30,307 nt of DNA from a virus, in IMG/VR virus record IMGVR_UViG_3300013094_000190, positions 1-30,307 of that record, one strand, 5' to 3'. The notes below the pieces were generated by a model. That model saw only the letters and a list, made by a program, of their open reading frames with translations, did not search any database and was not told the origin of the DNA. Both the position numbers and the translations under genes were made by a program. This document shows, in pieces, positions 1,432 to 14,843 of this stretch; positions within the stretch are counted from its first letter, which is position 1, and the number at the start of each line of letters is the position of its first letter.

Positions 1432-2877
1432 ATGTTTGTAGCCTTTATTCCTAGACCAACACAGATCGTTAACATATCTTCTGCTGCTAACAACGTTAAT
1501 TTGTATACGCAGGCAAACAGTCCTACGTATCCGTTGAATCTATTAGCTTTTATCAACGCTTCAGTTGGTTCTTCTTCTAATACGAATCCAGCTTTTAGAA
1601 CTGGTACAGGTTGGACTCCGGGTACATGGCTCTATATTCAAAATTCAAACACGATCACTGGTGGTGTTGGTCCGACCGGTAATACCGGTTCTCCAGGTTC
1701 TCCGGGTTCTCCGGGATCGACTGGTTCTCCCGGTCCTGCGGGTTCTCCGGGTGCTACGGGTTCTACTGGTTCTACTGGTTCATACGGTTATGGAGGTGCC
1801 GGTGGTGCTGGTGCTTATGTAAATTATCAGGGTTGGGGGGCTAATTATCCAAGCGAACCAGTAAACGGTTATGGAGGTAGCGCAGCTTCTTCGGGTGCTC
1901 CGGGTGGTACTGGTGGTCCTGGAGGTACAGGTGGTGCAGGAACTCCCGGTGGTACTGGTGGTCCCGGTGGTGCAGGAACTGCGGGTGGATCTGGCGCGCC
2001 GGGAGGTAACGGCGGTATCGCTTTTCAAGCAGATACAGTATCGGGTCTTATTACTGTATTGAATAACACGACGACTATTAGTGGTGGAACTGGCGGACCT
2101 GGCGGTCCCGGCGGACCTGGCGGTCCCGGCGGACCTGGCGGTCCTGGTGGTCCAAGAGGTGCTGGTGGTCCGGGTGGTCCAGGTGGTCCAGGTGGTCCGG
2201 GCGGCATCGGAGGTGGTGGAGGCGGCGGCGGTGGCGGCGCTGGTTTCTATAACCCAGGCTTTTATTTACCGGGTTCTGCTTTAATGTATACGATCGCTGG
2301 ATCTGGTGGCGGTGGTGGTGCAAGTTGGACTTCTCCAGGTGCTGGTGGGTCTGGTGGTTTTGTAACTATTCCGGCCTATACGACTTATGCACCTGCACCA
2401 AAGGGTTGTTCACCGATAGCAACATATCATCCTGCGACTAATTATTATGCATCCGGCGGTGCGCCGGCTTCGGGTTCATCACCGGGCGGTGGCGGCGCAG
2501 CTTGGGGTTATGGAGGTGCTGGTGGTGCTGGTGGTGCTATAAATGGTTCTGGAGGTAATGGTGGTAATGGTAACGCTCGTGCGACAGCTCACTATGCTCC
2601 TGCTCCTAAGGGTTGTTCTCCTGTCTTCACCGGTTATACTTACGATCTATACACAGTAGGCGGTGCTGGTGGTGCTGGTGGTGGTAACGGATCGACAGGA
2701 CCTACTGGTCCTGTCGGATCACCGGGTTCACCGGGTAGTACAGGACCGACAGGACCTGCTGGTTCTCCTGGTTCGCCCGGTCCTATTGGACTTGCAGGAT
2801 CACAGGGTCCAGCAATATCAGGCAATTCAAACATAGTTTACGTAAGCGCGGGTACACGTAACGGACCAATTAGCTAA
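1432..2877 (+). CDS. Collagen-like / polyglycine-rich tail adhesin candidate
   Basis: A 481-residue protein. Residues 1-76 form a non-repetitive beta-type domain (Asn/Ser/Thr rich, ending in a Trp-Leu-Tyr-Ile-Gln-Asn strand) of the kind that precedes Gly-rich stalks in phage tail proteins. Residues 77-118 are collagen-type Gly-X-Y triplets. Residues 119-195 and 218-310 are Gly-Gly-X repeats with a run of ten Gly near 260. Two Gly-poor inserts carry the same decapeptide (319-328 and 388-397). Residues 410-460 return to Gly-X-Y triplets. Gly-rich motifs separated by variable loops recall the polyglycine-II sandwich of S16 gp38-type adhesins, but no homology is claimed. Its place directly after two fibre genes supports a tip or adhesin role. 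The two Cys in the whole protein are both in the decapeptides. Confidence 0.7.
   Translation: MFVAFIPRPTQIVNISSAANNVNLYTQANSPTYPLNLLAFINASVGSSSNTNPAFRTGTGWTPGTWLYIQNSNTITGGVGPTGNTGSPGSPGSPGSTGSPGPAGSPGATGSTGSTGSYGYGGAGGAGAYVNYQGWGANYPSEPVNGYGGSAASSGAPGGTGGPGGTGGAGTPGGTGGPGGAGTAGGSGAPGGNGGIAFQADTVSGLITVLNNTTTISGGTGGPGGPGGPGGPGGPGGPGGPRGAGGPGGPGGPGGPGGIGGGGGGGGGGAGFYNPGFYLPGSALMYTIAGSGGGGGASWTSPGAGGSGGFVTIPAYTTYAPAPKGCSPIATYHPATNYYASGGAPASGSSPGGGGAAWGYGGAGGAGGAINGSGGNGGNGNARATAHYAPAPKGCSPVFTGYTYDLYTVGGAGGAGGGNGSTGPTGPVGSPGSPGSTGPTGPAGSPGSPGPIGLAGSQGPAISGNSNIVYVSAGTRNGPIS
2092..2145 (+). repeat. Three tandem 18-bp units in the Gly-rich gene
   Basis: The unit GGCGGACCTGGCGGTCCC occurs three times in a row, the last copy with one base change. 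It encodes Gly-Gly-Pro repeats. Near-identical DNA here, against the varied codons used elsewhere in the gene, points to recent slippage or unequal recombination that would change stalk length. Confidence 0.9.
2386..2415 (+). repeat. Decapeptide repeat YAPAPKGCSP, copy 1
   Basis: Encodes residues 319-328 of the Gly-rich protein. It is identical in protein to 2593-2622 but differs at five synonymous third positions. Confidence 0.9.
2593..2622 (+). repeat. Decapeptide repeat YAPAPKGCSP, copy 2
   Basis: Encodes residues 388-397 of the Gly-rich protein. Its Cys395 and Cys326 in copy 1 are the only cysteines in the 481-residue product. Confidence 0.9.
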
Positions 2878-2888
2878 GGTAAAAAGAC

Positions 2889-3344
2889 ATGGACATTCAC
2901 TACAAAATCATTAAAGTATTTCCAGAAGAACACTCTATAGTCGTTAGATTTTTTACTGACGTATTGACAGAAGAAAAGCTGTCTGTTGATCCAGATATTA
3001 CTAATAAACTGTCTGATGGATCTCCAGAAAGATGCAGAACTGATTATAACATAAATCTTCCAGTACCTGCACCTGCTGACGGCGAATTAGAAAAATACAT
3101 TATGTTACATGCTCCGGTTCAGTGGTTTATAATGCATGAAAAAATTGCAGATCCAAATGTTGACACTTCACTTTCGCATATTCAACCATTGATAAATGCA
3201 AAAGTTACAAAAACTATTGGACCCGAATCTACATCTATCACTCTACCTACACCTACGTCGATGGATACTAGTGGTGGTGCTATGTCAGACGATGATATTG
3301 CTAATCTGTTAAAGAAAGTAACGATCGATAAATCTACTAAGTAG
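2889..3344 (+). CDS. Unrecognised small protein after the tail fibre genes
   Basis: A 151-residue acidic protein that I do not recognise. The first 75 residues look like a mixed beta domain. The middle holds a Trp-Phe-Ile-Met-His segment, and the C-terminus (after a Thr/Pro/Ser linker near residues 115-130) ends in a short acidic then amphipathic helix (Asp-Asp-Asp-Ile-Ala-Asn-Leu-Leu-Lys-Lys). It starts 11 nt after the Gly-rich gene, so it is probably co-expressed with the fibre genes. A fibre chaperone or small baseplate/tail protein is possible from position only. An AAGG at about 8 nt from the ATG could serve as ribosome site. Confidence 0.65.
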   Translation: MDIHYKIIKVFPEEHSIVVRFFTDVLTEEKLSVDPDITNKLSDGSPERCRTDYNINLPVPAPADGELEKYIMLHAPVQWFIMHEKIADPNVDTSLSHIQPLINAKVTKTIGPESTSITLPTPTSMDTSGGAMSDDDIANLLKKVTIDKSTK

Positions 3345-3346
3345 TT

Positions 3347-4435
3347 ATGAAATATAGTCAAAAATTAGTTGATGACATCTATTATTATGATGGCGAAAAC
3401 AACGTGTATGATAATAGACATGATCTTCTATTATCTACACGTTCTAAAACAAAGCTGTTCTATTATTATGATGACAAGTTTGATAAAGTAGAATGGACTA
3501 AAGAACCAATCGAAGATTTGCAGACTCTATATACTCGTAGAGCTCAACAAATTCGAGATCAATACGAATACGTGATATTGTGTTGGTCTGGAGGTGTTGA
3601 CTCTACGACTATATTAGAAACTTTCTATTACAATAAAATTCATATCGATGAGATCTTATTAGTAGGTGCTTTTTCTCAAGATTCGGCTAGAGGCGATGAC
3701 TCAAATCATAACGGAGACATCTATCATAATGTATGGCCTACTCTAAAAACTTTAGATCTTCCTAATACTAAAATTACAGTCAAAGATTACTCATTAAACT
3801 TCGATAATCCTAATAATTTTTCATTGATCAAAGATTATTCTGATGATTATATGAAATTCTTAGGTCCAATGATTAGTGTTCACAATCTGTTTTGGTATGA
3901 TCTTAAAAAGTTTGTCTTACCTAATAATGAAAAAAAAGCATGTTATATCATGGGGTCCGATAAGCCTAGATTGAATATTGACTCTTTTAAAAATAGCTTT
4001 TTTACTGAATTCAACGATGCTTCAGTAACAGACTACGGGGCAAACTTTAAAGATGAAAACTTAGAACGAGTTAATTTTTATGCTCATCCAGATGCTGAAG
4101 CTATTATAAGAAAACAATTACATATTTTATTAAAGTTCTATATTAAGAACGTACAAATTGAAAAAAATATGACTCATGATGATTTTCAAAAACATTATAT
4201 CACGATCGTGAATACTTTGATGTATGATTTGAAAAATCCTTTAAGACACAAATCTAAAAAATCTGTAATAGCTTGTATCAGTGAGAGAGATAACTTTATA
4301 GTCAATAAGCAAGATTCTGAAATATATAAATTGTTTAGAAACAATCTTCTTAAGATCGATAAAAGAATAGCTTACAAGAGACAAGCTTTTCAAACGAAAA
4401 GATATTATATCACGGAAAGATTATCAACCCCATGA
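3347..4435 (+). CDS. PP-loop ATP-pyrophosphatase family protein (copy A)
   Basis: A 362-residue protein with the PP-loop signature SGGVDS at residues 81-86, preceded by a hydrophobic strand (Tyr-Val-Ile-Leu). This is the nucleotide site of N-type ATP pyrophosphatases (the fold of QueC, TilS, asparagine synthase C-domain and PAPS reductase), which activate a substrate by adenylation. The flanking motif Arg-Ala-Gln-Gln-Ile-Arg-Asp-x-Tyr (residues 65-73) and a GSDKP motif at 203-207 are shared with the proteins at 7001 and 10427, so the three form one family. The N-terminal 60 residues have a Tyr-rich beta pattern also shared. No glutaminase, thiouridylase or zinc-binding partner domain is seen, so the substrate is unknown. 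It starts 2 nt after the previous stop with no strong ribosome site. Confidence 0.85.
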   Translation: MKYSQKLVDDIYYYDGENNVYDNRHDLLLSTRSKTKLFYYYDDKFDKVEWTKEPIEDLQTLYTRRAQQIRDQYEYVILCWSGGVDSTTILETFYYNKIHIDEILLVGAFSQDSARGDDSNHNGDIYHNVWPTLKTLDLPNTKITVKDYSLNFDNPNNFSLIKDYSDDYMKFLGPMISVHNLFWYDLKKFVLPNNEKKACYIMGSDKPRLNIDSFKNSFFTEFNDASVTDYGANFKDENLERVNFYAHPDAEAIIRKQLHILLKFYIKNVQIEKNMTHDDFQKHYITIVNTLMYDLKNPLRHKSKKSVIACISERDNFIVNKQDSEIYKLFRNNLLKIDKRIAYKRQAFQTKRYYITERLSTP

Positions 4436-4899
4436 TGTATGTTTTCTATTTTCTTTTGTGGACATTTGTGGTATACTGTATGCACAGAATAGTGCATGTA
4501 CTTCCTTATGTCAATAAGATTCATAGTGATCATCATAAACAAGTTTCTCAGGCCACGATACGTGGATTACATTGGACTAACTTATTTTTATATTTTGACA
4601 GTTGGAAAAGTACAGCAGATCAATGGATTACTGAAGTCATTCCTACTATAATTTTAGCTTGGATGACAGGGCAATGGTGGCTATTTGGTTTTTATTATAT
4701 TTGGGCAGCATTGATTCAAGAATCAATTGAACACAATCCTAAGTTTAATTTATATCCATTCATAACGAGTGGACAATGGCATCTTATTCATCATAAAACG
4801 CCTTCTAAAAACTATGGTGTGTTTTTTCCTATTTGGGATATGATATTTGGTACATGGCAGGGTTTAGATGGCGACATACAAAAATTGGCTAACAAGTAA
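4432..4899 (+). CDS. Fatty acid hydroxylase / sterol desaturase-like membrane protein
   Basis: A 155-residue hydrophobic protein with the histidine boxes of the FA_hydroxylase (di-iron) superfamily: HRIVH at 18-22, H31 with HH at 34-35, a lone H101, and H117 with HH at 120-121. Membrane segments are visible at residues 1-16 and about 68-95. Family members hydroxylate or desaturate lipids, sterols or carotenoids with O2 at the membrane. The length is short for the family but all boxes are present, as in compact beta-carotene-hydroxylase-type members. The start overlaps the previous stop by 4 nt, and either of two adjacent ATG codons could be used. It sits between two PP-loop genes, so it belongs to the accessory island; the substrate is unknown. 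Confidence 0.8.
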   Translation: MMYVFYFLLWTFVVYCMHRIVHVLPYVNKIHSDHHKQVSQATIRGLHWTNLFLYFDSWKSTADQWITEVIPTIILAWMTGQWWLFGFYYIWAALIQESIEHNPKFNLYPFITSGQWHLIHHKTPSKNYGVFFPIWDMIFGTWQGLDGDIQKLANK

Positions 4900-5758
4900 C
4901 ATTGTAGAACGTAAAGATACTGGTATTGACTTAAAAGTCACATTGACAAAGATCGATGAATGGGAACTAGATACTTCTTTCGAAGAAGCTTCTATCAATG
5001 TAGTCAAAACTATCACCAATTTGAACAAACCTCTTTATATTGGTCTTAGTGGAGGTTTAGATTCAGAATATGTTTGTCGTATATTTGATGAAGAGTATGT
5101 CCCATATACACCAGTCGTAATAGAAACGCCGGGTAATCAATTAGAATTGAGTTATGCTTATAAGTTTTGTAAAAAATATAATAAAGAACCCGTCATTATA
5201 AAAAAGACAGAAGCTGATATGCTTCATCATTACTACGATGAAATTCTAGTAAAATGTTCTGGTTTTGGTCATAATTCAGTCGCGATGTATATCATAGGTC
5301 AATATGCAAAAGATAGAAACGGCATATTTGTAATGGGTGAACATCTGATCGATGAAAAAGAAAAAGGTGGATTCAATGTAGGTGCCAACGAGTGGGATTT
5401 CTACAATGATCTTATATTAGGTGAAGATAATACACACTACTTCTTCAATTATACACCTGAAATAAGTTATGCTATGATCAGAGATTTTCCAATCTATAAA
5501 GATATACAGAAGTGTAAGTCTGAATTGTATGGTCTTGAATATAGACCAAAAATGATATATCAGTATAGTGACAAATATGTATCCACTTTAAGAATTTTGA
5601 GACATAGCAAAGTGTTGCCTCACAATCCTAACTTTACTTTTGGTGATAGAGATACATATCTAGATCTATTAAAATCTATGAGAGATAAAGATGGAAGAAC
5701 CAAAAGTAACGATAGACGAAGAAAACAAACTCGTAGAGTCAAAACAAAATCTGCGTGA
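4868..5758 (+). CDS. PP-loop ATP-pyrophosphatase-like protein (divergent, copy D)
   Basis: A 296-residue protein with SGGLDSE at residues 61-67 after a Tyr-Ile-Gly-Leu strand, the PP-loop signature of the asparagine-synthase/NAD-synthetase/QueC superfamily. It lacks the Arg-Ala-Gln-Gln and GxDKP motifs of the other three PP-loop proteins in this window, so it is a separate branch. A later His/Gly stretch (around residues 130-160, with Gly-Glu-His) may form the rest of the active site. The gene overlaps the upstream hydroxylase by 32 nt and the downstream gene by 68 nt. The last 20 or so residues, encoded in the second overlap, are very basic. Substrate adenylation is inferred from the motif; no function is assigned. 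Confidence 0.8.
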   Translation: MATYKNWLTSNIVERKDTGIDLKVTLTKIDEWELDTSFEEASINVVKTITNLNKPLYIGLSGGLDSEYVCRIFDEEYVPYTPVVIETPGNQLELSYAYKFCKKYNKEPVIIKKTEADMLHHYYDEILVKCSGFGHNSVAMYIIGQYAKDRNGIFVMGEHLIDEKEKGGFNVGANEWDFYNDLILGEDNTHYFFNYTPEISYAMIRDFPIYKDIQKCKSELYGLEYRPKMIYQYSDKYVSTLRILRHSKVLPHNPNFTFGDRDTYLDLLKSMRDKDGRTKSNDRRRKQTRRVKTKSA

Positions 5759-6596
5759 GCTTAGAGCTAACAGCGCTAAATGGGCATGGGAATCAGATGC
5801 CTATACAGATTTTGAACAGACTTATGGCAAGTATTTGTTACTTCCGTTTGCTATACCTATCATTCAACCAAAAAGTATGGATAGATTTTTAGAATTTTTC
5901 TTTACTAAATCAAAAGATGCGGTAAAGATAAAAGCAGATATGTTAAGTGATGAAGCAACAAAAAGATCATGGTCACCTTACCGTCAAATAACAAGCGTAT
6001 CTGGTAAACATTCTGATATTTGGTCTGATAATCAACAACCGGAAATCTATACACAGTTTCCTGAACTTTTTGAACAGATTCATGAATACATGCCTTTTAT
6101 AGATCGACCAGATTTTAAATGGTTTATGTGGTCTGCTAATAAAGACGTGCCTGCACACAGAGACTATGGATCACAAATCGATGCGCCGGTTGGCATCAGA
6201 ATAATGTTGTATGATGATAATCCCGTCCAATCTCTTAGCTTAAAAGTCGATCCTATTGATAAACCTGACTATAAATCTGACTACTATCCAATAGTATATC
6301 CGAAAGAAGAAACTAATACTTTTGCTTGGAATAATTTAAGACAGAAGCATGCAAGTTTCTATACCAAAGGACATAGAAAGATTCTTATGATTGTTTCAGC
6401 CAAAGAAGTATCAAGGATCGTTAGTACAAAAGAAAACAAAAAGAGACTCAATCAATACGTAGACTTATTGGATAGAAGCATCTCAAAATATAAAGACTAC
6501 GCAGTAATCGATACAGACAATGATTATAGAGACTATTTGGCATTCGATGGGACAGAACCTATAAATAAAGTCATGAGTCACGGAGAAACGAAATGA
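5691..6596 (+). CDS. 2OG-Fe(II)/aspartyl-hydroxylase-like oxygenase candidate
   Basis: A 301-residue protein. The centre shows an HxD pair (H156, D158 in Pro-Ala-His-Arg-Asp-Tyr-Gly), a distal His (H220) and a downstream Arg (R229 in a Gly-His-Arg-Lys-Ile-Leu strand), with spacing that fits a double-stranded beta-helix 2-oxoglutarate/Fe(II) oxygenase, perhaps of the aspartyl/asparaginyl beta-hydroxylase type. The N-terminal 45 residues are charged and helical; the last 60 are lysine/aspartate rich. The ATG chosen overlaps the upstream gene by 68 nt; no later start keeps the N-terminal helix, and the ribosome site is weak. The family call rests on motif spacing alone, so it is moderate. It lies between PP-loop genes on the same strand and is probably co-transcribed. 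Confidence 0.6.
   Translation: MEEPKVTIDEENKLVESKQNLRELRANSAKWAWESDAYTDFEQTYGKYLLLPFAIPIIQPKSMDRFLEFFFTKSKDAVKIKADMLSDEATKRSWSPYRQITSVSGKHSDIWSDNQQPEIYTQFPELFEQIHEYMPFIDRPDFKWFMWSANKDVPAHRDYGSQIDAPVGIRIMLYDDNPVQSLSLKVDPIDKPDYKSDYYPIVYPKEETNTFAWNNLRQKHASFYTKGHRKILMIVSAKEVSRIVSTKENKKRLNQYVDLLDRSISKYKDYAVIDTDNDYRDYLAFDGTEPINKVMSHGETK
6560..6567 (+). promoter_or_regulatory. Candidate late promoter (exact TATAAATA) inside the oxygenase gene
   Basis: An exact match to the T4 late box, 26 nt upstream of the ATG at 6593, with a GGAG ribosome site between (6582-6585). The spacing equals that of the gp22 and gp18 promoters in this window. It would give the second half of the island separate late expression. 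Confidence 0.5.
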
Positions 6597-6994
6597 CTGC
6601 TAACGTACACCAATACTTTTATAAGACCGCCAATCAATCATGGAATGACGTAAAATCGACGGCAAATACAACTCAGACTGATGCATGGAAAGCTTGGCAA
6701 AACAACGTAGTTCAGGCTTATCCAGGTTTTATTGCCGTACTTTCAGATGAAAATATCGATGCTAATACGATGCGTAAGACATGGTCATTGGCTAATGATT
6801 CTGTGGCTAAAGCTTTTTGGAATACGACTCATGATGCTAACAATTCTTATTATGCAGCCGTATTATCAGAAATTATCAATACACCATCTTTCGAAAAACA
6901 TTATTTTAAAGTGACAGTCGAGTATCAAGACGGTACAGAAAAAACACTGATCAATCCACTACCTCAAGCAAATATTGCATCTTCTAATACATAA
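6593..6994 (+). CDS. Unrecognised 133-residue protein
   Basis: I do not recognise this protein. Residues 1-90 are helical with regularly spaced Trp (about residues 17, 32, 35, 64, 76) and Asn/Ala/Thr-rich faces. Residues 95-120 read as a two-strand beta segment (Phe-Lys-Val-Thr-Val-Glu-Tyr, then a turn and Thr-Leu). The C-terminus is a loose Ser/Asn tail. It has no membrane segment or signal peptide. Its 4-nt overlap with the oxygenase gene, a good GGAG ribosome site and an exact late promoter box just upstream support it as a real, well-expressed late gene. It could be a small virion protein or a substrate/carrier for the neighbouring enzymes; both are guesses. Confidence 0.7.
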   Translation: MTANVHQYFYKTANQSWNDVKSTANTTQTDAWKAWQNNVVQAYPGFIAVLSDENIDANTMRKTWSLANDSVAKAFWNTTHDANNSYYAAVLSEIINTPSFEKHYFKVTVEYQDGTEKTLINPLPQANIASSNT

Positions 6995-7000
6995 TGATTT

Positions 7001-8263
7001 ATGCCCTTACATCTTATAGGAAAAGCAAACAGACAACAGATAACGAGTGTTGGCAATAAGTTATCTTTTAGTCATTTGCATTGTGGATATTATGTTTATA
7101 ATAATAAGATGTATATAGATCGAGAAGATCTTCTTGATGATATGCTTATAAGCGAAGATGATAATAGAGTATACTTTTATTTCAATGAAGATGTATTCAA
7201 TTATATTGATTGGACTATTGAACCCGATATTTCTTTAAAAGAACTCTATAGATTAAGAGCACAACAACTTCGTGATACTTACGACTATCTGATTTTGAGT
7301 TATTCTGGGGGTTCTGACTCTCATGAAATACTGATGACTTTTCTAGAGAATGATATTTTTATAGATGAAATTCAAACAGTACATCATTATTCTCTCATAG
7401 AAAAAGTCGACCGTGCATTCTTAAAAGGTAATAGTAATCTTGCAACATTACTAGAATTTGAAATGGCTGTCTTGCCAGTATTACAAAAAGTAGTTGAAAA
7501 AAGTCCAAAAACAAAATTAAAATTGATAGATGCTTCTGATTATACAGTACAAAATGCTGTTAAAGAAAAGAAGTTTTCTTTTATGGGTATAGATGGTAAA
7601 AAAATAAATACGACTTTTATAACGCAGACTACTCCGTTTGTTAGAACTTTTTATCAGCATCATTATAATAATACTAGAACAGATCTGCCAACAAAAGTAG
7701 GGTTTATTAGAGGCACCGATAAACCTAACTTAAAAATGAATAAAAATAGATTGAAGTTTGCTTTTACTGATGTGACTATGCACGGAGCAAAGCTAATCAA
7801 TAAAAAACAAATAGGTGATGTCTATACGATTGAAAACTTTTATTGGAATCCTGAAATACCACTTATTCCTATAAAACAATCACATGTCATTAAAAAAGCA
7901 TTAGAAAACGATGCTAATTTTTATGCTATGTTCATGCTTAATCAAGACAAGTCAGCTAAGCATGTTGAATTCAATATGAAGGGACATCCGAGCGATTATT
8001 ATTTCACAAGAAAATATAACAGATACATATATCATTATTGGAACGATCAATTTTATCAAGCACCTAAAAAAATAACAGAATCGGGTGAATTATTGATTCT
8101 AGATAAACTTTTTAATGATACGACATATAGAGAAGTACTAAAAGAACAACAAGATTACACGTTTAAAAAGTATAATAAAATAGACGATAAGAAGCTCATA
8201 AATAGAACGATCATTTCTAATGTATATGATGTAGGAGAATTGAATGTTACGTGGGATAATTAA
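7001..8263 (+). CDS. PP-loop ATP-pyrophosphatase family protein (copy B)
   Basis: A 420-residue protein with SGGSDS at residues 102-107, the upstream motif Arg-Ala-Gln-Gln-Leu-Arg-Asp-x-Tyr at 86-94, and RGTDKP at 237-242 followed by a Thr-Met-His-Gly-Ala-Lys segment. It is closest to copy C at 10427 over most of its length and more distant from copy A at 3347. The N-terminal part has the shared Tyr-rich beta region, with about 20 extra residues before it compared with copy C. The PP-loop implies ATP cleavage to AMP and pyrophosphate with substrate adenylation; the substrate is unknown and no accessory domain is seen. It overlaps the following Bug-type gene by 20 nt, so the two are probably translationally coupled. 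No strong ribosome site precedes its own ATG. Confidence 0.85.
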   Translation: MPLHLIGKANRQQITSVGNKLSFSHLHCGYYVYNNKMYIDREDLLDDMLISEDDNRVYFYFNEDVFNYIDWTIEPDISLKELYRLRAQQLRDTYDYLILSYSGGSDSHEILMTFLENDIFIDEIQTVHHYSLIEKVDRAFLKGNSNLATLLEFEMAVLPVLQKVVEKSPKTKLKLIDASDYTVQNAVKEKKFSFMGIDGKKINTTFITQTTPFVRTFYQHHYNNTRTDLPTKVGFIRGTDKPNLKMNKNRLKFAFTDVTMHGAKLINKKQIGDVYTIENFYWNPEIPLIPIKQSHVIKKALENDANFYAMFMLNQDKSAKHVEFNMKGHPSDYYFTRKYNRYIYHYWNDQFYQAPKKITESGELLILDKLFNDTTYREVLKEQQDYTFKKYNKIDDKKLINRTIISNVYDVGELNVTWDN

Positions 8264-9149
8264 AACTATTATAGGACTGATGATGATCAGTCCTGTTTAT
8301 GCTACTGAACAAGTAGAAATCATAACTAGTATTCCTGTAGCCGGATCTGGAGGACAGATCGGTGCAGGTATCACACAAATTCTTAATAAAGTTCAAACAG
8401 AACGAGAATATAAGTTTGTAGTTAGCCCGGGAGCACAGGGTGATACTTCTGCACTAAAAGCTATAGCAGATGCAAAGACACAAAATGTCGTAATGTTTAA
8501 TGGCATTTCAGTCACTACAACAAATAGACTTCTGAATGTTAATCCAGGTTTTGATAGAGATAAAGACTTTATTCATACAGTTGGCATAGGTAAAAACTAT
8601 TATGCTGTGATGGTTAGTCAAGATTCTCCTATTAAAAATATCGATGATCTTGTGAGTTCAATCAAAAATAAACAAGAGTCTTATTTTTCTACTACTCTGA
8701 CTGCTCCAGGATCTGTCATTTTGAACGACATTTTCATGAAGAAATATAGTCTAGAAAACAAAATTAAAACCATCAACTATAAGACTCCACAAGAAATTAT
8801 TTTAGCACTAAATAACAAAGAATCAGACTATACAATCTTTACTATTTCAGATATGATCAATCTGAAAGCGATCTTAGTATCATCGGAAAACAGGTTAATT
8901 CAGTTTCCTGATGCTCCGACTGCTAGACAGTCTGGTTTTGATGCATTCTCGTTGTCTTCTATTTTAGTTTTCTCTATTCCTAAAGAAAGAGAAGCTTTTG
9001 AAAAAACATTCGAAGAAGACATGAAAAAAGTATGTGCTGATCCAGACTATGAACGCGTAGCTAATATAAGAGCACCATATAGATCCGAATGTATGTCGCC
9101 TGTCGATACTAATAAGACTATCGACAATGAACTTAGGACGATAAGATAA
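8244..9149 (+). CDS. Exported TctC/Bug-family periplasmic binding protein (1)
   Basis: A 301-residue protein with a Sec signal peptide: positive N-terminus, hydrophobic residues 5-16 and an Ala-type cleavage site after residue 20. Family signs of TctC/Bug (tripartite tricarboxylate transporter binding proteins) include a Gly-rich ligand loop near 33-38, a Phe-Asp-x-Asp-Lys-Asp-Phe segment at 103-109, Ser-Pro-Ile-Lys-Asn-Ile-Asp-Asp-Leu at 128-136 and an Ala-Pro-Thr-Ala-Arg-x-x-Gly-Phe motif at 224-232. The family binds small carboxylates in the periplasm. No membrane partners (TctA/TctB) are in the window. Cys264 and Cys283 match a Cys pair in the Bug protein at 11625 and may form a disulfide. 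A strong AGGAG site lies 6 nt before the ATG, inside the upstream PP-loop gene. Confidence 0.8.
   Translation: MLRGIIKTIIGLMMISPVYATEQVEIITSIPVAGSGGQIGAGITQILNKVQTEREYKFVVSPGAQGDTSALKAIADAKTQNVVMFNGISVTTTNRLLNVNPGFDRDKDFIHTVGIGKNYYAVMVSQDSPIKNIDDLVSSIKNKQESYFSTTLTAPGSVILNDIFMKKYSLENKIKTINYKTPQEIILALNNKESDYTIFTISDMINLKAILVSSENRLIQFPDAPTARQSGFDAFSLSSILVFSIPKEREAFEKTFEEDMKKVCADPDYERVANIRAPYRSECMSPVDTNKTIDNELRTIR
8273..8294 (+). other. Perfect 9-bp hairpin in the signal-peptide codons
   Basis: AGGACTGAT and ATCAGTCCT pair perfectly around a GATG loop. The hairpin begins 10 nt after the stop of the upstream PP-loop gene and 29 nt after the Bug start codon. No T-run follows, so it is not a standard terminator; it might affect translation or mRNA decay. 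Confidence 0.5.
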
Positions 9150-10430
9150 ATGTTTACCGATAAAACGTTCTGCACTCTTCCTTGGTCACATATTCAAATC
9201 AATACCACTGGTAATTTTAAAGTATGTTGTTTCACGGGTGATCCAGAAAAACATATCGGTGAACACGGCATTTCTACAGACGATGATGGTAATGTCATGA
9301 ATATCATGACACATTCTCTAGAAGATGCAATGAATAGTAAGATCCATAAAGAAATAAGACTGCTGCAGTCTATGGATCAGAGACACGGCGCTTGTAGAAT
9401 GTGTTGGGATAAAGACGATGCTAATGTTGAGTCTATGCGCACGCTACAAAATAGAAGAAACATTGGTATAGACGGCTTTATATTTAGAGACGAAGCCGAT
9501 TCTCGTATGTCGTCAGACGGCACAATTAAAAACATTCCAGTTTCTTTAGACATTCGTTTTGGTAATCTTTGTAATGCAAAATGCATTCACTGTGAACCTC
9601 TCTATAGTACACTTTGGTACGAAGACGTAGAAGCAGTATGGGGTACTAATAAGTTTCGTGTAGGTCCTGAGACATACGAAATTAGAAAAGAAAACGGTAT
9701 CTATAAAGCAGATCTTAAAAAATGGTGGGAATCTGAAAACTGGTTAAAAGAATACGAGAAGATCAAATATCAGATTAGAGAACTTTATATTACCGGTGGT
9801 GAACCAATGGTAGTTCCATATCACGCCGAATTTCTTGATAGATTGATAGCTGATGGTGTTGCTGGTAATATAAGACTTGGATACGATACAAATCTTCTTG
9901 CGGTAAATCAGAACATCATTTCAAAGTTTAAGCACTTTGGAAGTACGATGATCTCTGTAAGTACTGACGATATAGAAGAGAGATATGAGTATATCAGATT
10001 TCCTTCGAAGTGGGATAAGCTCCAGCGCAATATGCAGTTGATGAAAGAAAATAACATCAAGATAGATAGAGTTTCTCTATGTGTCGGCATATATTCAGTA
10101 CATTCTTTGTTTAGAATGGTTCCCTTTTATAGTGATTTGGGGTATAATATAATCAGACAACGTATCTTGAATTCGCCGGTCATGTTTGATATGAAGTGGT
10201 TACCCAAAAAAGCTAAATTAGAAACCATACAAAAATACGAAAACTCTAATATCGGTAGAGACAACTATCAGATGACGACAGGTTATCTTTATAATACGTT
10301 GGATATTCCGGAAAATCCAAAGATGTTATCAGCCTTTGTACAGCGTATGAATAAGTTCGATGAGATTCGTAAATTAGACTGGAAGAATACATTCCCTGAA
10401 GTAGCTGAAATGGTTCAAAAATATATATGA
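9150..10430 (+). CDS. Radical SAM protein with N-terminal twitch/SPASM-like Cys region
   Basis: A 426-residue protein. The radical SAM motif CxxxCxxC is at C141, C145 and C148, followed by a GGEP motif at 216-219 for SAM binding. Ahead of it, residues 1-90 hold Cys8 in a Cys-Thr-Leu-Pro-Trp segment, Cys26-Cys27 and a CxxC at 82-85, the pattern of SPASM/twitch auxiliary iron-sulfur cluster regions, here placed before the core rather than after. Known SPASM/twitch enzymes modify peptides, proteins or small molecules by radical chemistry. The size and N-terminal Cys region argue against QueE, and no queuosine genes are nearby. It follows the first Bug gene directly and overlaps the next PP-loop gene by 4 nt, so it sits between the two PP-loop/Bug pairs. 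Confidence 0.9.
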   Translation: MFTDKTFCTLPWSHIQINTTGNFKVCCFTGDPEKHIGEHGISTDDDGNVMNIMTHSLEDAMNSKIHKEIRLLQSMDQRHGACRMCWDKDDANVESMRTLQNRRNIGIDGFIFRDEADSRMSSDGTIKNIPVSLDIRFGNLCNAKCIHCEPLYSTLWYEDVEAVWGTNKFRVGPETYEIRKENGIYKADLKKWWESENWLKEYEKIKYQIRELYITGGEPMVVPYHAEFLDRLIADGVAGNIRLGYDTNLLAVNQNIISKFKHFGSTMISVSTDDIEERYEYIRFPSKWDKLQRNMQLMKENNIKIDRVSLCVGIYSVHSLFRMVPFYSDLGYNIIRQRILNSPVMFDMKWLPKKAKLETIQKYENSNIGRDNYQMTTGYLYNTLDIPENPKMLSAFVQRMNKFDEIRKLDWKNTFPEVAEMVQKYI

Positions 10431-11623
10431 AATTAAGACATGCACATACTGGTCATTATCTGTATAAAGACCGTATATATGTAAAAAGAACAGATGTTTT
10501 AGATGAGATGATTCGAACAAGAGATTATTCTGGTCGAATGTCTTTCTATTTCAACGATGATGTGTTCGATTCATTGAGTTGGCATACTGAAATAAATGTT
10601 AGCTTAGATAAGCTCTATACGTATAGAGCACAACAACTCAGAGACAAATACAAGTATCTAATTTTAGCTTTTTCTGGAGGAAGTGATTCAGTACAAGTTC
10701 TGAATACTTTTCTTAAAAACAATATTTTTATAGATGAAATCATAACGTGTCATCACTCAGATCTAATCAAGAATATAGACGAATCAGTTCTTTACAATAG
10801 TGAAGAACTATCTACTTTCTTAGAATACAAATATGCAACGACACACTATCTTAAAAAGATCAAAGAACAAAGTCCCAATACTAAAATAACCACTTTAGAT
10901 CTGTCTAATTTTCTATATGAACAACTGGTAAACAAAAAGTTTGGTCACATGGGCGGCGATCAAAGACTGACACATACAAACAGTCGTGTTTTTGCCATAT
11001 TTCCACGTTCTTATATGCATGCCATAACACTCAATCTTATAAATCGTGATACAGCAGGAATGGCCTTGATAAGAGGTGTAGATAAACCCATCTTAAAAAT
11101 TAGAAACGATAATCTATTCTTCTTATTTAGTGATATTACTATGCACGGTGCAAAGCACTTTAATACGGGTGAATTAGATCATATATTTTCTTTTGAAGAT
11201 TTTTTCTGGTCAAGAGATATGCCACTTATACCCATAAGACAGTCTCAAGTTATCAAGAAAAAATTAGAGATGGATAAAATGTTCTATATGAATTTCTGTT
11301 TCTTCAATGAAGACATAGATCGTTATTATCTAGAAAATAGAGACGGTCATAGTAGTGGTGGTGACTTAGAAAGACTTTATAGTAATCTCATTTATCCAGA
11401 TCATAATCCACTTTTATTTGCTGCACCAAAACCCAAGAAGAAATCTCCAGAATTCACATTGATGGAAACTGTTGTAGGTAGACATTTTGGTAAAGATTTC
11501 TTAAATGAATTGAGACAAGAAGCATATCAAAAATATGATAAGATAGTTTATAAAGATCAACTCAATAAATTCATTTATTCTAAGAAATATCATCTTGGTA
11601 AAATAGAACCTGAATGGAGTTAA
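10427..11623 (+). CDS. PP-loop ATP-pyrophosphatase family protein (copy C)
   Basis: A 398-residue protein with SGGSDS at residues 83-88, Arg-Ala-Gln-Gln-Leu-Arg-Asp-x-Tyr at 67-75 and RGVDKP at 216-221 followed by an Asp-Ile-Thr-Met-His-Gly-Ala-Lys segment. It aligns with copy B at 7001 from its residue 5 onward, including the Ile-Pro-Leu-Ile-Pro-Ile-(Arg/Lys)-Gln-Ser segment late in the protein, so the two arose by duplication. The ATP-pyrophosphatase activity is inferred from the PP-loop; the target is unknown. It overlaps the radical SAM gene by 4 nt and ends one base before the second Bug gene's ATG, so it is in the same operon. Confidence 0.85.
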   Translation: MKLRHAHTGHYLYKDRIYVKRTDVLDEMIRTRDYSGRMSFYFNDDVFDSLSWHTEINVSLDKLYTYRAQQLRDKYKYLILAFSGGSDSVQVLNTFLKNNIFIDEIITCHHSDLIKNIDESVLYNSEELSTFLEYKYATTHYLKKIKEQSPNTKITTLDLSNFLYEQLVNKKFGHMGGDQRLTHTNSRVFAIFPRSYMHAITLNLINRDTAGMALIRGVDKPILKIRNDNLFFLFSDITMHGAKHFNTGELDHIFSFEDFFWSRDMPLIPIRQSQVIKKKLEMDKMFYMNFCFFNEDIDRYYLENRDGHSSGGDLERLYSNLIYPDHNPLLFAAPKPKKKSPEFTLMETVVGRHFGKDFLNELRQEAYQKYDKIVYKDQLNKFIYSKKYHLGKIEPEWS

Positions 11624-11624
11624 A

Positions 11625-12551
11625 ATGTTAAAGAAGTTATTGCTTGCATTGATGATAGTGACACCGGCTTATGCTGGTCAACAAGTAGAAATTGTAACTA
11701 GATTTGGTCCTTCTACTTCGTCTGGCAGATTTGCTATAGAAGCTATGAATATGCTCAATGAAATGCAGAAAGACTATGACTTTAAAGTTTCAGTGATCAT
11801 AGGTGCTAACGGTGAAGCTGCTGATCAGAGAGCTTTAGTTATTGGAAAAACACAACCGATTCTGTTATGGAATAGTTCTTCTTCTTATACTTTTAACAGA
11901 TACTTTGTCGGTAATACGTATGATAGAGACAACGATCTAATACCACTTCAAGGAATGGCAAGCGTACCGTTTTCTATTCAGGTCGCTCCCGATTCACCTA
12001 TAGAAACTTATGAAGATTTTATTAAGTTTGTCAAGTCTAAGCCCGTAGTTTATATGGGAAACACTGCTAGTTCAAGTTCTGTTAATCTTTTAAAAGCTAT
12101 TCTTGTAAAAACTAATAAGATCGATAACATAAAAGACTTGGTCTATGAAAAGCCGTTTGATATTACTAGGGCTGTATTGACAAAAGAAGCTGATTTTACT
12201 ATCTTTAATCCAGCAGACGTGGTAGGTTTAAAACAACTAGTGACGAGTAGTCCCGATAGAACGTTTAAATATAGAAACGTACCTATTGGTAAAGAAGTAA
12301 ACATGCCTGATTTTATATATACTTCACAGACTCTGGTATCAGTACCAAAAGAACAAAAAGAATTTGGCGAGAAGATTCAACCTCTTCTCGCCAAGATATG
12401 TTATGATCAAAGATTTTCTGATATCGTAGAAAAGTCTAATTATTTTTCAAGTTGTTTAGGTCCTAATGGCATGAAGAAGAGAATAGTCGAAGAGATGAAA
12501 CTTATTGAAAAATACAAAGACTCTTTAGATTTGACACCCGGTCCTAAGTAA
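11625..12551 (+). CDS. Exported TctC/Bug-family periplasmic binding protein (2)
   Basis: A 308-residue protein with a Sec signal peptide (Met-Leu-Lys-Lys, hydrophobic 5-12, cleavage after Ala17). It is a paralogue of the protein at 8244: the same first strand after cleavage (Gln-Val-Glu-Ile), a Tyr-Asp-Arg-Asp-Asn-Asp segment at 99-104, Asp-Ser-Pro-Ile near 123 and a Cys pair at 259 and 277. The Ser-rich loop at 30-34 takes the place of the usual Gly-rich ligand loop, so ligand choice may differ from copy 1. The ribosome site (TGGAG) lies in the last codons of the PP-loop gene. The gene ends the rightward accessory operon and its stop overlaps the stop of the leftward oxygenase gene by 8 nt. 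Confidence 0.75.
   Translation: MLKKLLLALMIVTPAYAGQQVEIVTRFGPSTSSGRFAIEAMNMLNEMQKDYDFKVSVIIGANGEAADQRALVIGKTQPILLWNSSSSYTFNRYFVGNTYDRDNDLIPLQGMASVPFSIQVAPDSPIETYEDFIKFVKSKPVVYMGNTASSSSVNLLKAILVKTNKIDNIKDLVYEKPFDITRAVLTKEADFTIFNPADVVGLKQLVTSSPDRTFKYRNVPIGKEVNMPDFIYTSQTLVSVPKEQKEFGEKIQPLLAKICYDQRFSDIVEKSNYFSSCLGPNGMKKRIVEEMKLIEKYKDSLDLTPGPK
12364..12394 (+). other. Perfect 12-bp hairpin inside the second Bug gene
   Basis: TTGGCGAGAAGA pairs perfectly with TCTTCTCGCCAA around a 7-nt loop. It lies in coding sequence about 160 nt before the stop and has no T-run, so it is not a standard terminator. Confidence 0.6.
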
Positions 12552-13158
12552 ACTTTGGACCGATAACCCATACTACCAAAGACTTACGAATACCAGAAGT
12601 CACCGGTTTTACTCTATGAGTCATAAAGGAAGGGAATAAAATAGCCCTTCCTTTTTTTGTATCTACGTCTATGGGTGTCTCTTGATTACCATCGCATACT
12701 TGAAATTCGCCGCCCTCGTAATCATCATTTAGTTGCAATGTCAATGAAAGCTTACGAGTTTCAGCCATATTTTCTGTCATTTGGCCCATAGCCATATCCA
12801 TGTGCCAATCATAACGACCTAATTCTTCTGATCTATAGACAGTATATTGAAACGAATCATAACCGTTCAAATCAAAACCATAATACATCTCGTTGATACT
12901 TTGAATAACAAAATTGAGTTTATCAAAGATCCACATAGTTTCTGGATTTCTACCGAAAAACTTAACGTCTGACTTTCTGACTTTTTCAGTAAGTTCTTGA
13001 TCTCCGGAAAAAGTAGTACCTCTTTCAAGTTGTTCTTGTTCACAATATGTCTGAATGGCTTCTAGTTCACCTTCAGTAAAAGCATCGTCCCAATAAGTCC
13101 AAGGATGAGTAAGTCTAGCTCTTGTATGTGGATCATTATAGATCGTTGTGTATTTCAT
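12544..13158 (-). CDS. 2OG-Fe(II) oxygenase (prolyl-4-hydroxylase/PKHD-like)
   Basis: A 204-residue protein with all motifs of the 2-oxoglutarate/Fe(II) dioxygenase fold: iron ligands H119 and D121 in a Trp-His-Met-Asp segment, H181 after Phe-Pro-Ser-Phe-Met-Thr, and the 2OG-binding R191. A Tyr-Glu-Gly-Gly-Glu-Phe turn at 147-152 is typical of PKHD/P4H-type enzymes. These hydroxylate proline or other residues or small molecules. It is the last gene of a leftward three-gene operon and overlaps the gene before it by 23 nt. Its stop overlaps the stop of the rightward operon, and its sequence carries that operon's terminator. Cyanophages and other marine T4-like phages often carry such oxygenases, with targets mostly unknown. 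Confidence 0.9.
   Translation of the reverse strand: MKYTTIYNDPHTRARLTHPWTYWDDAFTEGELEAIQTYCEQEQLERGTTFSGDQELTEKVRKSDVKFFGRNPETMWIFDKLNFVIQSINEMYYGFDLNGYDSFQYTVYRSEELGRYDWHMDMAMGQMTENMAETRKLSLTLQLNDDYEGGEFQVCDGNQETPIDVDTKKGRAILFPSFMTHRVKPVTSGIRKSLVVWVIGPKFT
12626..12658 (+). terminator. Intrinsic terminator for the rightward operon, inside the antisense gene
   Basis: AAGGAAGGG pairs with CCCTTCCTT (9 bp, 10-nt loop) and runs into seven T on the + strand (12652-12658). On the - strand the tail is poor, so it acts rightward. It lies 75 nt past the stop of the second Bug gene and inside the coding sequence of the - strand oxygenase, where it encodes ordinary residues. Confidence 0.75.
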
Positions 13159-13843
13159 TTCTGAAGATTCTCCAGTTAGATGTTGGTTGAATTCCTGTAG
13201 GTCTAGGCATGTTTTTTCTGTAAGTAAAAATAATGTCTCCTGCTAGACAAACTCTCTTTGTATATAGATCACTTACGTGTTTGCAACCGGTATCTCGTTC
13301 TTCAGTACCATACCCGACTGTATAGTGATTCAGAGTTGAAGGAAATATAAAAAGATCACCCTCAGACGGAACAAATGTGTGATCGTATTCGTTCCATCTA
13401 TTAGTTTCGTTAGCATTGAACTTGATCATGCCATAATAAGGATCGTTGTTATGAGGAGGCGCATTACAGAAAACCAATGGCTTTTCTAGATTTTCTGGAA
13501 TGTTTGTGTAGTAAGTAAAAGAAAGTTGAGCGTCTTCATGATTATGAAAAGGAGTGTGTCTTTCTTTAGTAATGTTCATCCATGTCTTGATGATATTGAT
13601 ATCGAATATCTCAGGATCAATACCGATAGCTCTGACATACTCTGCAATCATTTCACTGATGTAAACAAATAGAGGTGCATAGGCTTCTTCATGATGTATA
13701 TTGACATGACCGGTAAATTCGCTCGAGAACCCATCGATCGTCATATACTTCATTAACTTATTCATAAATATGGGTTTGAACTCGTATGCATTTGGATATT
13801 GATCCTGAATGATTAGAGTAGGAAAGATTGCGTGTTTAATCAT
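13136..13843 (-). CDS. Putative 2OG-Fe(II) oxygenase (phage type)
   Basis: A 235-residue protein that resembles the putative 2OG-Fe(II) oxygenases common in marine T4-like phages. A Trp-Met-Asn strand (88-90) leads to H100 within a His-Asn-His-Glu-Asp segment followed by a Ser-Phe-Thr-Tyr-Tyr strand; then come Pro-Ser-Glu-Gly-Asp-Leu-Phe-Ile-Phe-Pro (159-168), a distal H173 and R197. The metal site would be H100, an acidic residue at 103-104 or H102, and H173; the first site is less canonical than in the neighbour. It overlaps the upstream Bug-type gene by 4 nt (ATGA) and the downstream oxygenase by 23 nt, so the three are one operon. The substrate is unknown. Confidence 0.75.
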   Translation of the reverse strand: MIKHAIFPTLIIQDQYPNAYEFKPIFMNKLMKYMTIDGFSSEFTGHVNIHHEEAYAPLFVYISEMIAEYVRAIGIDPEIFDINIIKTWMNITKERHTPFHNHEDAQLSFTYYTNIPENLEKPLVFCNAPPHNNDPYYGMIKFNANETNRWNEYDHTFVPSEGDLFIFPSTLNHYTVGYGTEERDTGCKHVSDLYTKRVCLAGDIIFTYRKNMPRPTGIQPTSNWRIFRNEIHNDL

Positions 13844-14799
13844 CGTTTATCCTCGTTCAACTTTTTAAGTCTTTCTTTCATATCTTCAGAGATTGAACTC
13901 TCATACTTTACTAATTTTAAAGCTTCTTTATAGTCTATAAGATTGACTTCAAAATTCATCTTTTTAGCTTCGATCAAGTAGTCTTGATCGTTTACGGCTT
14001 TGATGAATGCTTCTCTTAGTTCTTTTGCTTTATTTTCTGGAATTCCTGGTGGAGCGACAAATGGTCTTAACAAAGCATATCCTGCTTCTACAACAGACAA
14101 TAATTTTTTGTCATCTTCTGATTTTACCATTTCTGCTAGTGTTTGTACATCTTTATATTCAGGATGTCTTGTAGTTCCATTTCCGAACTGTATATAAGCT
14201 TTGATGCCAGATCCTGGTTCTAACCAATAGGGCTTTTGTGTCTTGATGCCAATAAGATTATAGACAACAGTGTCTACTTCTCTATTTTCAAATGCTAATC
14301 TTGCGGCTCCTGTTGTAGCATATCCTGTCACTATCTTAGCATCTAGATGTGCCAATTCTTTAACCAAAAATGCAGGATTCACACCCATATAGTTTTCTGA
14401 ACCGATTATTTCGGGTTCATATACGTTACACCATACAATGACTGCATCTTTTCTGCCGTCAGCATTTGATCCTAACCATGTGAATTTTTCAGGATCAAAC
14501 ATGACGTTTTGATCGCCCAAGACACCGATGAGCGAGATCTCTTTATAGAGGGTACCGATGACTGTGCCATCTTTTGGAGCTACATTATACAGATAGTTGG
14601 CAGCTACGAGACTAGCAGCACCCGGCATCGCTTGGATTACTATGTCTGGATGATTGGGTAAATACTTAGAAATATACTTTCCTAAAATACGTGCATTTAT
14701 ATTATAACTATCGTTCTCAGAAGGCACGATTATTTTAAGTGTGTCAGCCATAACGGGCGTGACTATTAGACTAAAAGCGATCAAAATCGCGCGAAACAT
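13840..14799 (-). CDS. Exported TctC/Bug-family periplasmic binding protein (3)
   Basis: A 319-residue protein read from the ATG at 14799. This start has a GGAG site 7 nt upstream and begins a clean signal peptide (hydrophobic 4-13, cleavage after Ala18); the frame could extend upstream to 14832 but that would spoil the signal. Family features include Pro-Gly-Ala-Ala-Ser near residue 60, a Lys-Asp-Gly-Thr segment, Phe-Asp-Pro-Glu-Lys-Phe and a C-terminal Ala-Pro-Pro-Gly-Ile-Pro motif, which is a classic TctC/Bug sign. It looks closer to ordinary cellular Bug proteins than the two + strand copies and lacks their C-terminal Cys pair. It is first in a leftward operon with two oxygenases, driven by an exact late promoter box. 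Confidence 0.85.
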   Translation of the reverse strand: MFRAILIAFSLIVTPVMADTLKIIVPSENDSYNINARILGKYISKYLPNHPDIVIQAMPGAASLVAANYLYNVAPKDGTVIGTLYKEISLIGVLGDQNVMFDPEKFTWLGSNADGRKDAVIVWCNVYEPEIIGSENYMGVNPAFLVKELAHLDAKIVTGYATTGAARLAFENREVDTVVYNLIGIKTQKPYWLEPGSGIKAYIQFGNGTTRHPEYKDVQTLAEMVKSEDDKKLLSVVEAGYALLRPFVAPPGIPENKAKELREAFIKAVNDQDYLIEAKKMNFEVNLIDYKEALKLVKYESSISEDMKERLKKLNEDKR

Positions 14800-14835: not shown

Positions 14836-14843
14836 TATTTATA
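14836..14843 (-). promoter_or_regulatory. T4-type late promoter for the leftward operon
   Basis: The - strand reads TATAAATA exactly, 37 nt upstream of the ATG at 14799. It faces the gp13 promoter box at 14815-14822, so the two late promoters point toward each other within 30 bases. Confidence 0.7.

Follow-up and report, generated by a model that had tools for sequence, protein, structure and literature searches.

A recurrent set of PP-loop synthetase, Bug-type binding-protein and hydroxylase genes in the variable island of a T4-like viral late region

We studied an island of enzyme and binding-protein genes carried by the 30,307-base IMG/VR record IMGVR_UViG_3300013094_000190, the whole of which is called the window here. 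The right half of the record is a T4-like late region, in which PHROGs matches identified gp13 and gp14 followed by terminase, sheath and scaffold genes, and Pfam matches gp14 to gp15. The major capsid protein was recognised via its match to phage capsid genes; the closest capsid proteins among phage records, ~63-67% identical, are those of DLP6, Sinorhizobium phages, Mosig and Melnitz. Fibre proteins and a collagen-like protein occupy the left end of the window, and the island lies between these and gp13, with gp14 and gp15 further downstream. It combines PP-loop synthetases and exported Bug-type binding proteins with a membrane di-iron hydroxylase and oxygenases, and it is more than a chance gathering of genes: the set recurs in dozens of viral contigs. 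Every gene named in a first-pass annotation of the sequence is an open, full-length reading frame, at the following positions:

1432..2877, + strand: glycine-rich protein, collagen- and adhesin-like, that closes the fibre cluster (Pfam Collagen, 2.3e-7), recurring upstream of the module
2889..3344, + strand: g2889, small conserved gene that by its position links adhesin and module
3347..4435, + strand: PP1, PP-loop synthetase of the PP3/PP4 family (SGGxDS motif; alignment with PP3/PP4)
4432..4899, + strand: FAH, small membrane di-iron hydroxylase (FA_hydroxylase PF04116, 6.9e-16)
4868..5758, + strand: PP2, predicted AsnB-class PP-loop synthetase, partner of FAH (AlphaFold model, fold comparison)
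5691..6596, + strand: OX1, probable Fe(II)/2-oxoglutarate (2OG) oxygenase (H156-x-D158, H220 and R229 invariant in five relatives)
6560..6567, + strand: T4-type late promoter TATAAATA, 25 nt ahead of orf6593 (kept before orf6593 in 4/8 relatives)
6593..6994, + strand: orf6593, small conserved protein with no function assigned (relatives in the same position)
7001..8263, + strand: PP3, PP-loop synthetase, partner of BUG1 (alignment with PP1/PP4; co-variation of the pair)
8244..9149, + strand: BUG1, predicted exported Bug/TctC-type binding protein (PF03401, 1e-9; signal-like N-terminus)
9150..10430, + strand: twitch radical S-adenosylmethionine (SAM) protein (NCBIfam NF033640, 8e-87)
10427..11623, + strand: PP4, predicted AsnB/beta-lactam-synthetase-class synthetase, partner of BUG2 (AlphaFold model, fold comparison)
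11625..12551, + strand: BUG2, predicted exported Bug/TctC-type binding protein (PF03401, 1.2e-5; adjoins PP4)
12544..13158, - strand: OX2, 2OG-Fe(II) oxygenase (PF13640, 8.8e-17; phrog_61, 6.8e-33)
13136..13843, - strand: OX3, 2OG-Fe(II) oxygenase (PF13759, 4.6e-10; phrog_81, 6.8e-25)
13840..14799, - strand: BUG3, predicted exported Bug-like binding protein with an ATG start at 14799 (full-length profile match to BUG1/2; signal-like N-terminus)
14836..14843, - strand: T4-type late promoter TATAAATA, 36 nt ahead of BUG3 (kept only in close relatives, 3/25)

The packing of the + strand genes described at first pass was borne out, with six of nine junctions overlapping and the others spaced by 0-6 nt. 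The - strand operon OX2-OX3-BUG3 had been said to repeat the protein classes of the + strand; it does so for the oxygenases and the Bug protein, but it has no PP-loop gene.

The four PP-loop proteins gave almost no Pfam signal (best 0.0026), and the SGGxDS motif that identifies them is near-invariant, being present in 182 of 187 relatives of PP1-PP4. We built AlphaFold models of PP4 (71 sequences, pLDDT 93.7) and PP2 (35 sequences, pLDDT 92.7) and assigned the fold class with VIA-align on these predicted models, while PP1 and PP3 were placed through their alignment with PP4. PP4 scored best against AsnB (Z 11.9 over 288 aa), beta-lactam synthetase (11.0) and carbapenam synthetase (9.6), the next class below being GMP synthetase (7.7). 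For PP2 the top scores were those of human ASNS (Z 14.5 over 244 aa), E. coli AsnB (13.9), carbapenam synthetase (13.4) and beta-lactam synthetase (13.3), with LarE next below (11.2). Foldseek E-values for PP4 were weak (best 2e-3), and its placement therefore rests on the second aligner, VIA-align. The models show PP4 and PP2, one for each subfamily, as predicted members of the AsnB/beta-lactam-synthetase fold class. The predicted fold is shared over nearly the whole of both proteins, together with SGGxDS, but identity is below 20%, a PDB sequence search with the PP4 family gave nothing meaningful, and the glutaminase cysteine of the AsnB class is missing. A start-residue check of 191 PP proteins did not find the N-terminal glutaminase of glutamine-dependent asparagine synthetase to be a feature of them: a Met-Cys start occurs in 0 of 131 PP1/3/4 proteins and 2 of 60 PP2 proteins, and the window proteins are without it. 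GMP synthetase, LarE and NAD synthetase score below AsnB in the fold comparison and may still serve as functional models.

As the first-pass annotation had held, the PP-loop proteins fall outside queuosine synthesis and phosphorothioation, with no match to those families; we rejected queuosine, sulfur-transfer and phosphorothioation readings because the weak QueC and PAPS-reductase matches are confined to the ATP motif. A bacterial origin of the PP genes was likewise rejected, the PP3/PP4 family being nearly absent from the sampled Pseudomonadota (1 of 398 genomes, on a 3 kb contig of a metagenome-assembled genome). PP2 had only local PP-loop matches in bacteria, and PP4 gave no plasmid match.

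The other enzyme calls of the first pass also held. FAH has its FA_hydroxylase match and the histidine boxes of that superfamily, with HxxHH occurring twice in 46 of 46 relatives. The twitch radical SAM protein, beyond its NF033640 match, contains a radical SAM domain (7.4e-12) and a SPASM domain (3.6e-7) by Pfam/NCBIfam. Two of the three proposed oxygenases are recognised through family matches: OX2 is PKHD-related, and the profiles of both OX2 and OX3 match 2OG oxygenases of Mosig. OX1 had no match in Pfam, in PDB (where a sequence search returned nothing meaningful) or against the OX3 profile, and we rejected it as a relative of OX3 on this profile-profile comparison; we call it a probable oxygenase because its HxD...H...R metal-site set is invariant in five relatives, and not from a family match.

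All three Bug-type assignments were likewise upheld, two through TctC and the third by profile comparison. BUG1 lies above and BUG2 just below the Pfam TctC/Bug cut-off; BUG3 reaches only 0.096 in Pfam, and its profile matches those of BUG1/2 over 97% (6e-11). A mixed profile of BUG1-3 finds the solved Bug27 and terephthalate-binding proteins (4e-20). A simple heuristic finds signal-like N-termini for 88 of the 99 Bug proteins and for 0 of the 191 PP proteins. Bug proteins are receptors for small carboxylates, and enzymes of the AsnB type make amides from carboxylates that they first adenylate.

At first pass it had been proposed to test whether the set recurs at the fibre-gp13 junction of marine phage contigs, and dozens of viral contigs have it there. 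Scanning viral contigs with protein queries, we collected 122 loci (L numbers below) in 83 non-redundant groups; ~70% of the loci were gathered with PP queries, and the results of the FAH and Bug scans are less affected by this bias. The contigs are mostly fragments, so that absences carry little weight. The recurrent order is fibre, collagen-like protein, g2889, PP1, FAH, PP2, (PP/Bug pair), then OX2, OX3 and BUG3 on the opposite strand, and gp13, and it is kept even where gp13 is just ~50% identical. The linker g2889, which has no Pfam or PHROG match, adjoins the collagen gene in 25 of 28 cases and PP1 in 21 of 28. PP2 is present in all 42 FAH-bearing non-redundant groups and adjacent to FAH in 38, the FAH-queried loci not having been picked by PP2. 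Bug2 adjoins PP3/PP4 in 31 of 33 cases, and Bug1/2-type genes almost always lie beside a PP-loop gene, in T4-like as well as in far larger phage contigs. The Bug-seeded scan returned contigs already in the set plus one further locus, L175, which itself has an adjacent PP4-Bug2 pair. PP/Bug copy numbers are equal in 33 of 43 groups (14 with 0/0, 16 with 1/1, 3 with 2/2) and unequal in 10. L005 has the pair in inverted orientation, L008/L009 have it twice, and in L013-L015, L065 and L123 the order of its two genes is reversed; L047 has it as well, as does the L076 contig of 374 kb, with TctC confirmed there by Pfam. The genes were thus not found to occur independently of one another in related phages as regards PP, FAH, Bug and OX2/OX3; the radical SAM gene does so, and OX1 in part. 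Of the 42 FAH groups, 5 have the radical SAM gene, an optional member, and a minority of 8 have OX1.

Where PP3/PP4 is lacking, a QueC-like PP-loop protein stands beside Bug3 paralogues (L091, L107, L112), and next to two such pairs lies an Amidoligase_2 gene (L107:9239-10030, L112:2985-3803), which encodes another predicted amide-forming enzyme at the site that the module otherwise occupies. PADLOC gave weak QueC and REase_II matches for the QueC-like protein of L091. In L160, L161, L170, L171 and L174, which have no T4 genes in view, a short PP-loop gene precedes Bug3 behind fibre-like genes; in some of this group the pair lies ahead of lysis-type genes. The large-phage contig of L076 (L076:4471-14425) has three Bug genes, three PP3 genes and an NMT1/phosphonate-type binding protein, and in L081:4488-8654 a DctP binding protein (tripartite ATP-independent periplasmic type, 1.2e-46) lies between two Bugs.

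Next to gene order, protein distances connect the same partners. The distances are uncorrected and the groups few (9-17), so that the following values are indications. Across 45 same-strand adjacent PP-Bug pairs, 32 of them overlapping, the distance correlation is 0.86; for the 17 pairs that have gp13 it is 0.81, with 0.41 for PP-gp13 and a partial PP-Bug correlation of 0.78. With gp14 removed, partial correlations are 0.73 for PP1-BUG3, 0.80 for PP1-OX3, 0.67 for PP2-BUG3, 0.70 for PP2-OX3 and 0.72 for OX3-BUG3, even though PP1/PP2 and OX3/BUG3 sit on different strands. A Mantel value of 0.87 for PP1-OX2 (pair set, n=18) was discarded when the larger group set gave 0.31. These results show PP3-BUG1 and PP4-BUG2 to be linked co-diversifying pairs, PP1-BUG3 to be paired by co-variation, FAH-PP2 to be a core pair and OX2-OX3-BUG3 to be a conserved operon. 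The earlier proposal of one functional module is sustained by three observations together: gene neighbours and gene order are kept, PP and Bug copy numbers match, and module genes co-vary more than the phage backbone accounts for.

NATAAATA/TATAAATA has been published as the late promoter of marine T4-like phages (PMC2984593). The window has four exact TATAAATA sites, 25-44 nt upstream of orf6593, BUG3, gp18 and gp22; this count is not above chance (4 vs 3.2 expected), and only the positions are informative. In relatives, with a chance expectation of 0.008 per 125-nt window, TATAAATA lies upstream of fibreA in 18/22, gp18 in 6/7, orf6593 in 4/8, gp13 in 7/25 and BUG3 in 3/25; it was found before none of the FAH, PP2, PP4 and Bug2 genes and before PP1 in 1/30. 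Because the motif is frequent before fibreA and near-absent before PP1, FAH, PP2, PP4 and Bug2, the + strand module genes are most probably transcribed from the late promoter of the fibre genes.

We then compared the module with known systems. The site corresponds to the hypervariable host-recognition cluster of marine T4-like phages and pelagimyophages, which contains fibres, glycosyltransferases and radical SAM cassettes (PMC7029224), and the variable island of T4-like marine phages has been described before (PMC7029224, PMC2984593). We see it between fibre and neck genes in the window, in its relatives and, in the same place, in Mosig EXVC030M, which there encodes four 2OG oxygenases, PcyA, heme oxygenase and ferrochelatase. 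This host-recognition cluster, or hyperplastic auxiliary metabolic gene region (pelagimyophages, cyanomyoviruses, Mosig), shares with the window its place, the OX2/OX3-related oxygenases, the radical SAM cassettes and the late region. OX2, OX3 and the genomic location are therefore ordinary, since the site is a known cluster and Mosig has related 2OG oxygenases in it. What the window adds to the Mosig-type cluster are PP-loop synthetases, Bugs and FAH, none of which was detected in the fetched Mosig, Melnitz and DLP6 regions, and by sequence comparison this PP/Bug/FAH content appears as the unusual part. A tblastn search of 50,697 phage records (INPHARED) with PP1, PP2, PP4, FAH, OX1, BUG1, BUG3 and the radical SAM protein (PP3 and BUG2 belong to the PP4 and BUG1 families) returned no match for PP1, PP2, PP4, FAH, OX1 and BUG3, one 24% match for BUG1 (in a record labelled Salmonella) and one 25% match for the radical SAM protein. 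Neither the gene set nor the pairing of a synthetase with an exported receptor was found described in the literature searched. Anti-phage defence was rejected, PADLOC giving only weak pVip (radical SAM) and generic 2OG matches.

The phage Bugs share sequence family and signal-like N-terminus with the TctC receptors of tripartite tricarboxylate transporters, from which they differ in being paired with synthetases and in having no TctA found alongside. Our preferred reading, which we hold tentatively and at somewhat less than even confidence, is that the genes form a co-inherited phage cassette, expressed late, for capturing a carboxylate with an exported Bug protein and activating a carboxylate into an amide with an AsnB-class enzyme. 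The Bug protein would bind the carboxylate in the periplasm, and host transport would bring it in, since no phage TctA transporter was found; the cytoplasmic synthetase would adenylate it and join it to an amine or ammonia, and the di-iron and 2OG oxygenases would hydroxylate the product. Late expression with the fibre genes suggests that the product may act at the cell envelope, on virions or at release, and not in DNA replication. We also count in favour of this reading that the variants keep the chemistry, with QueC-like PP-loop proteins, Amidoligase_2, and DctP and NMT1-type binding proteins. Of the roles envisaged at first pass, making or capturing a host small molecule is the best fit, unproven as it is.

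Several points weigh against such a capture-and-activate cassette. A periplasmic Bug and a cytoplasmic PP-loop protein cannot meet directly, and a phage-borne tripartite tricarboxylate transporter had to be rejected, with no TctA or other transporter gene in eight related viral records (three >150 kb, several partial). The reaction does not follow from the fold class, as LarE, GMP synthetase and NAD synthetase have the same core. The PP-Bug linkage is not fully unbiased because some of the loci were found through PP queries, and the co-variation could reflect linked inheritance of neighbours and not function. The late promoter of BUG3, being confined to close relatives, was rejected as a general feature.

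The alternative that survives best, although we consider it unlikely, is remodelling of the host envelope, in which the enzymes would alter host lipids or surface glycans and so block superinfection or change receptor recognition. A membrane FAH and three exported proteins would suit it, and AsnB-class amidation of sugar acids is conceivable; the host-recognition cluster of pelagimyophages also has glycosyltransferases proposed to alter the surface (PMC7029224), and related contigs encode curli secretion proteins, a porin and a barrel protein of the outer membrane. On the other hand, the window module is without a glycosyltransferase or lipopolysaccharide gene, late expression leaves little time, and we know of no surface-modifying role of Bug proteins.

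The curli genes form a type VIII secretion block between module and gp13 in L021:14504-19784 (CsgF, CsgG, curlin-repeat proteins, FecR and a CHASE2-adenylate cyclase), with similar blocks in L023, L038, L101, L103 and L104; such blocks have already been reported in pelagiphages (PMC7029224, PMC9599517). The porin, of the Porin_2 family (4.7e-45), is encoded beside a PP3-type and a radical SAM gene on the 168 kb contig of L002 (L124:15689-17083), as is the outer-membrane beta-barrel protein (L129:18488-19039, 1.2e-10). The Porin_2 family is known from alphaproteobacteria, and its presence in this L002 relative hints at the host. The contigs of L002 and L101 (168 and 158 kb) have 32 and 28 tRNA genes.

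Barely less likely than this is a collection of unrelated auxiliary genes, each with its own function, in a hypervariable hotspot. The island is known to be variable (PMC7029224, PMC2984593), Mosig fills the same place with oxygenases, PcyA, heme oxygenase and ferrochelatase, and the optional radical SAM gene and the minority gene OX1 behave accordingly; the FAH-PP2 and PP-Bug linkage, the matched copy numbers and the co-variation beyond phylogeny stand against it.

More improbable again is a phage specialised-metabolite pathway of clavam- or carbapenem-like kind, which would make a new late amide or lactam for signalling, killing competitors or cell protection, each Bug being tied to the ligand of its paired synthetase. 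In the clavulanic acid cluster a beta-lactam synthetase and clavaminate synthase occur with OppA2, a binding protein implicated in biosynthesis (PMC7830376). The same three classes (AsnB-class synthetase, 2OG oxygenase and binding protein) are present here, but the binding-protein family is another, other clavam genes are missing and the set is phage-borne; the likeness is an analogy of parts and not evidence for a lactam.

Modification of the fibre or adhesin proteins, also proposed at first pass, is weak at best and, by a shade, the more doubtful still. Hydroxylation and amide linkage would fall on the collagen-like protein, a candidate target of the PKHD-related OX2. Position and the shared late operon speak for it, the module lying directly downstream of the fibre genes, as does the short PP-loop/Bug3 pair behind fibre-like genes in the unrelated L160, L161 and L170 and, less clearly, L171 and L174. 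However, fibre co-variation disappears once phylogeny is removed: partial correlations of module genes are 0.03-0.24 with the long fibre, compared with 0.25-0.50 for the collagen-like protein and 0.38-0.52 for g2889. In addition, the Bugs are exported, and PP/Bug pairs lie away from fibres in L024, L030 and L076.

We give least credence to nutrient scavenging, in which the Bugs would supply host transporters with carboxylates during infection in the manner of cyanophage PstS: binding proteins without their own transporters, as with phage-borne pstS, and other binding-protein families in related phages would fit, but pstS is not paired with synthetases, and late expression and the tight synthetase pairing are left unexplained.

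Phage accessory genes are usually read singly, and here a multi-gene set spread over two strands is inherited together. Its chemistry may be specific to phages, because the PP-loop and FAH proteins are without detectable relatives in the 50,697 phage records and PP3/PP4 is nearly absent from the sampled bacteria. The pairing predicts that each Bug would bind a substrate or product of its own synthetase. If the capture-and-activate reading is true, the module would represent a new way in which phages exploit carboxylates from the host or the environment, or else a natural-product pathway of phages.

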